Shown here: piece after piece, positions 16,629 to 30,342 of the stretch
Numbering within the stretch: the stretch's first letter is position 1
Layout of the letters: each line of letters opens with the position of its first letter
Assembly (NCBI GenBank): GCA_017530365.1
Contig: JAFXMK010000038.1
Coordinates: 1 to 45,447 of the forward strand
Direction: 5' to 3'
Origin: Bacteroidales bacterium
GTDB taxonomy: Bacteria; Bacteroidota; Bacteroidia; Bacteroidales; F082
DNA: 45,447 nucleotides
Program-made: the position numbers and the translations under genes
Notes under the pieces: model-generated
The model's input: only the letters and a program-made list of their open reading frames with translations
Databases searched by the model: none
What the model was told of the DNA's origin: nothing

Positions 16629-16636
16629 CGTGCCCA

Positions 16637-16669
16637 CACCCCCAGCCCCTCTCACCGAGGGAGAGGGGA
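16637..16669. repeat. CCCCTCTC palindromic repeat copy
   Basis: cccctctc (16646-16653) and gagagggg (16661-16668) form a hairpin preceded by acaccccca. The core matches the palindromes at 29007-29046 and 29302-29384. It sits between convergent rpmF and the PHP phosphatase gene. Confidence 0.75.
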
Positions 16670-28065: not shown

Positions 28066-29007
28066 ATGGAACATATCGAATGCCTCATCATCGGCTCCGG
28101 CCCTGCCGGTTATACTGCCGCTATTTATACTTGTCGCGCCGACATCAAGACGGTTGTTTATGAAGGAATGCAGCCTGGCGGACAGCTGACACAGACCACT
28201 GAAATCGAAAATTTTCCAGGCTATCCCAAGGGCATCAACGGTCCCGATATGATGGAAGACATCCGCCAACAGGCCTTGCGCTTCGGTGCAGAGATCCGTG
28301 AGGGCGAAGTCACTGCCATCGATGTCTCACAACGTCCTTTCAAGGTGACGACGGAATATGACGGCGAGTTGCTGGCCGACAGCATTATCGTCTCTACGGG
28401 TGCCTCAGCGCGTTACCTCGGACTCCCCACCGAAGAGGAGTTCAAGGGTGGCGGCGTCTCGGCTTGTGCTACCTGCGACGGTTTCTTCTATAAAGGAAAA
28501 GACGTGGCCGTGGTAGGCGGTGGCGACACCGCATGCGAGGATGCCACCTATCTTGCCAAGCTCTGCAATAAGGTCTATCTCATCGTCCGTCGCGACGTGT
28601 TGCGCGCCTCCAAGGCCATGCAACACCGTGTGCTGAATACGCCTAATATCGAGGTGCTGTGGAAACACCAAACCAAGGAACTCTTCGGCGAGCAACAAGG
28701 CTTCATGAAGAAACTGAAAGGTGCTGTCTTGTATCACAGCGACACCAAAGAGGAGCGCACTATCTATGTCGATGGCTTTTTCGAAGCGATCGGCCACACG
28801 CCCAACACCGAGCCTTTCAAAGGCATCCTCGACATGGATGAGGAAGGTTACATCATCACCAAGCCGAAATCCACCGCCACCAACGTGGAAGGCATCTTCG
28901 CTTGCGGCGACTGCCAGGACCGCATCTACCGTCAAGCCATCGTGGCTGCTGGAACGGGTGCCATGGCTGGCATCGAGGTGGAGAGATTCCTAATCGCTAA
29001 CAAATAG
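28066..29007 (+). CDS. trxB: Thioredoxin reductase
   Basis: FAD- and NADPH-dependent enzyme that reduces thioredoxin in the cytoplasm. The length of 313 residues is typical of the low-molecular-weight form. The FAD-binding motif IIGSGPAGYTAAIYTCRA is at residues 8-25, the redox-active pair CATC is at 134-137, and the NADPH-binding motif VVGGGDTACEDATYLAKL follows. FACGDCQDRIYRQAIVAAGTGAMAGIEVERF is the C-terminal FAD site. Its stop codon TAG provides the first base of the inverted-repeat-bounded element described next. Confidence 0.97.
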   Translation: MEHIECLIIGSGPAGYTAAIYTCRADIKTVVYEGMQPGGQLTQTTEIENFPGYPKGINGPDMMEDIRQQALRFGAEIREGEVTAIDVSQRPFKVTTEYDGELLADSIIVSTGASARYLGLPTEEEFKGGGVSACATCDGFFYKGKDVAVVGGGDTACEDATYLAKLCNKVYLIVRRDVLRASKAMQHRVLNTPNIEVLWKHQTKELFGEQQGFMKKLKGAVLYHSDTKEERTIYVDGFFEAIGHTPNTEPFKGILDMDEEGYIITKPKSTATNVEGIFACGDCQDRIYRQAIVAAGTGAMAGIEVERFLIANK

Positions 29008-29384
29008 ACCTCACCCCCTGACCCCCTCTCCAGCTGGAGAGGGGGGATTGAGTTAAGATTTGAGGTATGGGCGAGTTTGACAAATCCTATAGTGTGGTTC
29101 GGAACCAAATAATTAATCCGGATAAACTTGAGTTAGCTAGAGATTTTCGTAAGAATCCAACAGAGGAGGAGAATATGATGAATATCGCACTTCCGTGTTT
29201 GAATCAAGAGGTATTAGAACCTATAGGTTGAGAAACGATTATTGCGATAAACAACATCTTGAAGAATTAATAGAAATGATAATAAATGACCATCACTAGC
29301 CCATCTCCCCCTCTCCACTATGGAAAGGAAGTCGGTTTTTCGGCTCCCCCTCTCCATTTGGAGAGGGGGTCGGGGGGTGAGGTC
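29007..29384. mobile_element. 378-bp element with 25-bp inverted ends around a DUF559 remnant
   Basis: The left end (29007-29031) and right end (29360-29384, reverse complement) share 24 of 25 bases; both start gacctcaccccc and end gaccccctctcc. Each end also forms its own small palindrome with the next bases (ccccctctcc, a 4-base loop, ggagaggggg). Inside lie a gutted DUF559 gene and a second partial palindrome (29305-29330). No clear target-site duplication is visible. The end sequence is related to the repeat at 16637. Mobility is inferred from the architecture. Apart from the remnant I see nothing else coding in this 387-bp gap. Confidence 0.6.
29067..29299 (+). pseudogene. Internally deleted DUF559 (Vsr-like nuclease) gene
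   Basis: The N-terminal part in one frame (29067 onward) reads NQIINPDKLELARDFRKNPTEEENMM, the usual DUF559 opening (LARxLRKNxTxAE). The frame then runs to a stop at 29229. In another frame from 29180 the sequence continues YRTSVFESRGIRTYRLRNDY, then HLEELIEMII and a stop at 29297-29299. That is the usual DUF559 ending (LxxxGxxVxRFxNxxV). The central 50 or so residues, which hold the PD-(D/E)XK active site, are missing. An internal deletion explains both frames, and the product cannot be an active nuclease. Confidence 0.72.
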
Positions 29385-29394
29385 TAGACCCGAA

Positions 29395-30342
29395 ATGGAA
29401 CTAACCACCCCAATCAATATCACCCCTATTTCCCCAACCATCTCTTATGGCGACGGCTTGCTCTTTCTTGGCTCCTGCTTCGCCGACGAGGTGGGTGGGA
29501 TCTGTCGTGGCCTTGGCTTCAATGCCCAGGTAAATCCCTTCGGGACGCTCTATAACCCTTGCAGCGTGGCGAATTCGCTCTATCGTCTGAAAAGCGGCCA
29601 GCCTTTTTGCCATGAGGAAGTTGTCAAAGTGGGGGAGGACTACTACTGCACTTTCAGTCATAACACTGATTTCTGGTGCCCTTCCGAAGAAGCCGTTCTC
29701 GAAAAAGTAAATCAACATCTCGTCGAAGCTCATGCCCATTTCCTTCAATCGAAGTGGGTTGTGATCAGCTTGGGCACTTCTTGGGCTTTCCGTGAGAAGA
29801 TGACGGGTCAGGTGGTCTCCAACTGCCATAAGCTTCCTGCCAGCCGATTCGCAAGGACATTTCTTAGTATGGAGCAGTCAGTCGAGATCCTCTCAAACAT
29901 GCTGCGATCGATTCCCGACAAGCAGTTCATCTTTACCGTCTCGCCTTTGCGCCATCTGAAGGACGGTCTCCACGAAAACCAGCTGAGCAAAGCGGCTTTG
30001 CTCTTGGCGGTGGATCAAGTCTGCAAGGATTTTGACAACGCCCACTATTTTCCCGCCTACGAAATCCTTCTTGACGAGCTTCGCGACTATCGTTTCTATA
30101 AAGAGGACATGGTGCATCCCACCGACCAAGCGGTAAGATACATCTTCGAAAAATTCGTTCAATTCGCCGTTAATCCTTCTGAATATCCAGCAATGGCCGC
30201 CGCTGAAGAAGTAAAAAAGATGCTCCAGCACAAGCCGCTCTTCCCCGATAGTGATGCCTATCGCAAGTTTGAGCAGCAACGGGATCAGAAAACCTCTGAA
30301 ATAAAACAAAAATTTTCCAATATTATATTAGAAAATCTATAG
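29395..30342 (+). CDS. GSCFA domain protein
   Basis: 315-residue protein of the GSCFA family, an SGNH-hydrolase-like group common in Bacteroidota. I choose the ATG at 29395 (MELTTPINITPISPTISYG), because a longer reading would start within the repeat element. The name-giving motif is present as FLGSCFADEVG (about residues 26-36), with FNAQVNPFGTLYNP, then VVISLGTSWAFR and FTVSPLRHLKDGLHENQ, and the catalytic-type pair in DMVHPTDQAVRYIFEKF near the C-terminus. No signal peptide. Substrate unknown; the family may act on esters or acylated polymers. Confidence 0.87.
   Translation: MELTTPINITPISPTISYGDGLLFLGSCFADEVGGICRGLGFNAQVNPFGTLYNPCSVANSLYRLKSGQPFCHEEVVKVGEDYYCTFSHNTDFWCPSEEAVLEKVNQHLVEAHAHFLQSKWVVISLGTSWAFREKMTGQVVSNCHKLPASRFARTFLSMEQSVEILSNMLRSIPDKQFIFTVSPLRHLKDGLHENQLSKAALLLAVDQVCKDFDNAHYFPAYEILLDELRDYRFYKEDMVHPTDQAVRYIFEKFVQFAVNPSEYPAMAAAEEVKKMLQHKPLFPDSDAYRKFEQQRDQKTSEIKQKFSNIILENL

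Follow-up and report, generated by a model that had tools for sequence, protein, structure and literature searches.

A broken DUF559 nuclease gene between inverted triplex-forming repeats: probable remnant of a mobile element in a Bacteroidales genome

A stretch of 45,447 nt from a Bacteroidales bacterium (assembly GCA_017530365.1, contig JAFXMK010000038.1; the whole stretch is called the window below, and the genome G000) contains, between trxB and a GSCFA gene, a broken gene of the DUF559 nuclease family enclosed by two inverted palindromic repeats. What brought a nuclease gene and a repeat pair together at this place? A first-pass annotation likened the arrangement to repetitive extragenic palindromes (REPs) and their REP-associated tyrosine transposases (RAYTs). 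Based on the analyses described here, we consider it probable that a mobile element consisting of one DUF559 gene and two inverted triplex ends is present here as a dead copy. With somewhat less confidence, we lean towards the broader view that DUF559 nucleases mobilise intrastrand triplex repeats and that the BoxC/PIT/TM repeats, those of Escherichia coli included, are deleted derivatives of such units.

The repeats and the broken gene in the window

The two arms of the inverted repeat (29005..29045 and 29346..29386) are 41 nt long and 93% complementary; an end of 25 bp with one mismatch had been annotated, and while the inversion holds, this length does not. The left arm includes the stop codon TAG (29005-29007) of trxB (28066..29007, plus strand), and to the right follows the GSCFA gene (29395..30342, plus strand), the start of which was picked by homology. 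Each arm contains a palindrome (29022-29045 and 29346-29369), whose outer tail can pair as a third strand with the purine arm across a 3-nt spacer. In the left motif (29009..29045, minus strand) the stem-loop at 29022-29045 is followed by the spacer 29019-29021 and the third strand GGGGGTGAGG (complement of 29009-29018), and the intact motif in the right arm (plus strand) comprises the stem-loop 29346-29369, the spacer 29370-29372 and the third strand 29373-29382; 10 of 10 triads are predicted in both. Judged from its sequence, the repeat has the BoxC/PIT/TM intrastrand triplex architecture, for which the text extracts of PMC4666352 give the E. coli consensus CCCTCNCCC-N3-6-GGGNGAGGG-N3-GGGNGAGGG. 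The first-pass annotation, largely right in other respects, had missed this architecture. A search of Rfam with five loci gave no matches.

The sequence CCCCTCTCC is present in six copies in the window, against 0.28 expected, and none of 100 shuffles reached six. Eight perfect palindromes were found in G000, two of them being the window pair; one inverted doublet with a distance of 76 bp is among the eight. The lone palindrome noted before at 16637-16669 exists in degenerate form: it is a solo copy at 16635..16668 (minus strand) with stem arms at 16646-16653 and 16661-16668 and the third strand GGGGTGTG (complement of 16635-16642), in which 8 of 8 triads were counted by eye and 5 of 8 by a script scan that placed the arms differently. 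A further, decayed motif lies at 29307..29331 (plus strand). It is intact at the matching place in the sister genome G115, and this comparison suggests that it was probably the original right end, the copy at 29346 being an extra one. The idea that certain repeats were unique to G000 or G115 and thus recent insertions was rejected, since their flanks are partly shared side by side.

Between the arms, the nuclease gene survives as two fragments in different frames. The related genome G103 has an intact homologue at this site. Its residues 1-16 are matched by the N-terminal fragment (29127..29174, plus strand; 81% identity), and its residues 62-106 by the C-terminal one (29153..29287, plus strand; 73%, E 4e-23). 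The middle is absent from the alignment, and the same deletion is present in G115. By position, the missing region takes in D52, E63 and D65 (numbered after the first row of the alignment), a D, E, D set that is invariant in 40 aligned DUF559 proteins. The earlier statements that the catalytic centre is deleted and that the copy has decayed were thus borne out, and we regard the window copy as dead, its predicted catalytic middle having been lost. The PF04480 (DUF559) profile scored the intact same-site homologue of G098 with 91.5 bits (cut-off 20.6) and gave no match with the two window fragments alone. No DUF559 match was found in G000, which is 88% complete; Y1_Tnp genes are present there (G000:C1:143703-144047).

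Palindromes at intact DUF559 genes and places of the unit

Of 173 genomes in the window's family, 94 gave a match to the PF04480 profile. In the Bacteroidota set, 93 matches scored at least 84.6 bits, seven of which were too close to a contig end, leaving 86 loci. A pair was counted when a GC-rich palindrome was present within 250 bp on each side, and the palindromes were called the same when they had at least 7 nt in common. Palindromes were found on both sides of 47 of the 86 genes and the same palindrome at 40, while of 5103 random intervals in these loci five and none, respectively, qualified. The best 80 of 394 loci from named genomes (proteobacteria of several classes, Melainabacteria/Gastranaerophilales and others) included 78 with enough flank; one or both sides bore a palindrome in 69 of these, both sides in 48, and both sides the same palindrome in 43, versus 596, 60 and 3 of 3120 intervals. 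For Gammaproteobacteria, 29 of 30 loci among the matches listed were analyzed without interval control, with 21 and 20 showing both sides and the same palindrome, respectively. Three loci are common to two sets, all with pairs (L039/L233, L282/L373 and L300/L359), so that the pooled 103 of 193 rows correspond to 100 of 190 distinct loci, which come from many phyla. The enrichment at intact genes which the annotation had proposed to look for is therefore present. After thinning at 60% and 50% identity, matching pairs remained at 27 of 65 and 7 of 17 loci, respectively.

The triplex architecture accompanies these pairs. With at least 85% triads as criterion, a third strand was detected at 145 of the 206 palindromes in matching pairs and at 6 of 206 with shuffled flanks; 93 of these motifs have the tail directed at the gene, and 52 have it directed away, as in the window. 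The exact E. coli consensus lies within 300 bp of DUF559 at 14 of the 78 named-genome loci and 7 of the 29 gammaproteobacterial ones, and at none of the 86 Bacteroidota loci, where the stem sequence differs. Counted on both strands of the same loci, its density within 300 bp of DUF559 (42 in 115 kb) exceeds that elsewhere (8 in 1992 kb) about 90-fold, every match being outside the Bacteroidota set. At the genome level, the CCCTCTCC palindrome was found in 25 of 26 DUF559 genomes chosen from the best 80 named-genome loci, in 1 to 69 copies including those at the gene, and its reversed control in 0 to 2. Among 274 Gammaproteobacteria, 60 have a strong DUF559 match (at least 60 bits, a threshold we set ourselves); the palindrome is present in 48 of these and in 46 of the 214 others. 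At least five copies were found in 33 of the 60 and in 16 of the 214, the former count becoming 31 of 58 when the two seed genomes are left out; these numbers are uncorrected for phylogeny. G107 harbours 27 motif copies, some arrayed in units of approximately 110 bp, along with an intact DUF559 gene (L213, on G107:C142, and L215).

Gene and ends behave as one unit. In Sphingobium nicotianae, two copies align with 89% identity along exactly 452 bp, bounded by a palindrome at each end, and their flanks are unrelated; the frame starts immediately inside the left end, crosses the right palindrome and stops at its outer edge. In the genus sample (sphingomonads), whole or near-whole units without the flanks of the query were found in at least 8 of a further 80 genomes. 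Eleven sphingomonad units were inspected: both ends were recognised by script in eight, which are 444-471 bp long, and one of the remaining three is truncated where its contig stops. At eleven solo sites from sphingomonads, either one end or a shortened pair was present. Plasmids gave one weak match to the unit, and three phage records contain a YcjD relative, so the units look mainly chromosomal.

The unit also occurs inside coding sequences. At locus L066 it is inserted in frame in leucyl-tRNA synthetase (LeuRS); in an alignment with chain 1h3n, the Thermus thermophilus enzyme, the insertion falls between residues 236 and 237. By eye, the same LeuRS motif holds the unit in seven more open reading frames (L041, L048, L053, L054, L056, L060 and L073), and the corresponding TTRPE motif of valyl-tRNA synthetase (ValRS) holds it at L045. 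In these two related synthetases, the DUF559 gene and its repeats lie at corresponding motifs where the editing domain begins, as placed by alignment for L066 and by eye for the rest. By eye, two further reading frames with in-frame DUF559 (L072 and L074) resemble restriction-modification genes, namely a DNA methyltransferase and a subunit of a type I restriction system.

Relatives of G000 allow a comparison of the trxB-GSCFA site with and without the unit. The neighbourhood is matched in 90 of 99 genomes of the genus, and 49 loci from draft genomes were examined (the first 30 returned and 19 picked). In 27 of them the trxB stop and the GSCFA start simply overlap (ATGA in 26, GTGA in one). Six contain the DUF559 unit, intact in G098, G103, G134 and G080 and broken in G000 and G115, and three a single motif (G056, G068 and G112); the other 13 have different spacers, many with unrelated palindromes. 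Filled and empty states were thus both found, as the annotation had suggested checking, and all six DUF559-bearing sites have the repeats. The filled site of G103 and the empty ones of G101, G132 and G108 share flanks with 95-96% identity upstream and 93-94% downstream. Either the unit entered this one site more than once, or it was precisely lost on several occasions; the trxB tree, with at least two to three changes of the DUF559 label, is compatible with both, and the restored codon overlap in the empty genomes would make precise loss less likely. At this junction, relatives also contain other palindromic elements of the CGTCATTGCGAGG and ATCGGGGTGCC types (window 29005-29394; loci L132-L210), which makes it look like a general landing site.

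The sharp ends at the motifs, the different genomic places and the presence or absence at one site among close relatives together provide good support for mobility of the unit, as far as sequence comparison can. That DUF559 itself moves the repeats, as first proposed, is an inference.

Weighing other explanations

Several observations weigh against our reading. A matching pair within 250 bp is missing at 90 of the 190 distinct DUF559 loci, and the flank controls were random intervals, not matched for intergenic position. The ends are not arranged in one way, as the 93 inward and 52 outward tails illustrate. At least five palindromes were found in 16 of the 214 gammaproteobacterial genomes without DUF559, and none in 12 of the 60 with it; G136, a genome that is 71% complete, has 14 palindromes and no DUF559 match. 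No target site duplication is obvious at the sphingomonad units, and the trxB junction permits at most approximately 2 bp, ambiguously. The elements of G103 and G134 are 82-84% identical to that of G098 and 81% to each other, close to the 86-87% of trxB, so that old vertical descent with repeated loss fits as well. In E. coli, finally, ycjD has a BoxC/TM-like motif on one side only, approximately 170 bp from its 3' end, and the two polymorphic sites described below represent replaced intergenic DNA rather than clean insertions.

Could the gene be the invader and the repeats its older surroundings? DUF559, a PD-(D/E)XK nuclease, has a fold matching the solved I-Bth0305I homing endonuclease and Vsr, and being close to a homing catalytic domain it could be a free-standing homing endonuclease that parasitises existing triplex pairs, the motifs having spread otherwise. 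Some doublets lack a gene, for example the pair of G000 with its distance of 76 bp, and at the fixed allelic trxB-GSCFA junction presence and absence alternate as for a homing element, with the gene in scattered lineages that have empty sisters. However, the exact pattern finds only the two gene-flanking motifs in G098 and G134, so that no earlier population is visible there, although degenerate copies may be missed and G134 is 58% complete, and whole units lie inside synthetase coding sequences. We regard this explanation as unlikely, yet deserving attention.

Much less credible to us is that RAYT (Y1) transposases move the motifs as REP-like repeats and carry DUF559 along as cargo. Y1_Tnp genes are common in the window's family (98 of 119 genomes; the profile does not separate RAYT and IS200 types), and CGTC-like palindromes, taken for RAYT repeats, are present at the trxB-GSCFA junction in relatives. 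But matching palindromes flank only 1 of the 26 best-scoring Y1_Tnp loci (not of CCCC type, by eye) and 2 of 28 in the gammaproteobacterial set (none of CCCTC type, by pattern). Thus, palindromes of the DUF559 type were not found at the Y1 (HUH) genes tested, and the likeness to REP and RAYT drawn by the annotation holds as an analogy, without shared repeats. Moreover, no Y1 gene was seen in 9 of the 26 DUF559 genomes, some of them incomplete assemblies, and six of these nine have 19-51 palindromes. It is similarly improbable, in our opinion, that there is no mobile element at all and DUF559 is a host repair nuclease retained by fragile, structure-forming intergenic DNA. Triplex motifs are tied to genomic instability in the excerpts of PMC4666352, and in those of PMC12907096 the authors propose that Caulobacter VsrA, a protein with a DUF559 domain, acts in repair. 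Against this speak the homologous units with ends at motifs in different places, the differences between sisters at trxB-GSCFA and the insertion within an essential synthetase gene.

A possible origin of BoxC/PIT/TM repeats and comparison with known systems

We therefore return to a mobile DUF559 unit, for which the following course of events may be envisaged. The nuclease would cut or nick the target DNA, probably guided by the hairpin- or triplex-forming ends, and the unit could be copied in during repair of the cut. Internally deleted copies, such as doublets and solo ends, might be movable in trans and persist as BoxC/PIT/TM repeats. The gene in the window has lost its catalytic middle, and in G000 nothing but remnant repeats is left.

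BoxC was discovered near envM/fabI, and BoxC/PIT/TM repeats have been known in E. coli since the 1990s. A gene between inverted copies offers a possible origin for them, and with ycjD, a DUF559 gene (167 bits), in K-12 this question is testable in a laboratory strain. Of 5426 genomes, 5376 contain sequences like the motif beside ycjD (E up to 1), with a median of 19 places each, and 3362 have a place covering at least 80% of the ycjD region. Between fabI and sapF, K-12 contains ycjD with a BoxC-like motif, and three other strains have efflux genes by sapF (L232, L413-L415). Depending on the strain, the yihS-yihR and yhjG-yhjE gaps (L416-L425) hold a BoxC motif or pair, a REP-like sequence (yhjG-yhjE of a K-12 strain) or neither. 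If our reading is true, one more enzyme fold joins the short list of those spreading small repeats, and a large family still called DUF559 gains a role.

The motifs at DUF559 genes and the BoxC/PIT/TM repeats have their architecture in common, both occur as solo copies and inverted pairs, and the consensus is often found in the non-Bacteroidota DUF559 sets. The extracts of PMC4666352 describe the G/C-rich triplex motif in more than 260 genomes, leave mechanism and origin open, and report no mobilising gene and no mobility-providing activities around the E. coli sites; unlike in this description, a nuclease gene here sits between inverted copies. In what was seen of the open PMC papers we found no link between DUF559 and triplex repeats, although other texts, subscription papers among them, may hold one. 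To our knowledge, neither inverted ends able to form triplexes nor scattered solo ends have been described for homing endonucleases of the I-Bth0305I/Vsr type. Miniature inverted-repeat transposable elements are internally deleted derivatives that keep the ends of an autonomous element, and the deleted derivatives described here likewise share their ends with the full unit; however, the only gene of the unit is the DUF559 nuclease and no known transposase, and a target duplication, as with insertion sequences, was not found. The REP/REPIN-RAYT system has small palindromic repeats, solo or in inverted pairs and dispersed over the chromosome, and one enzyme gene in common with the DUF559 unit, but RAYT is an HUH enzyme and DUF559 a PD-(D/E)XK nuclease, whose palindromes form the triplex motif. 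In summary, no mobile-element family tested or known to us corresponds to the DUF559 unit in its gene, its ends and the way they are paired, and the unit thus appears to be new, with a logic resembling that of REP and RAYT.
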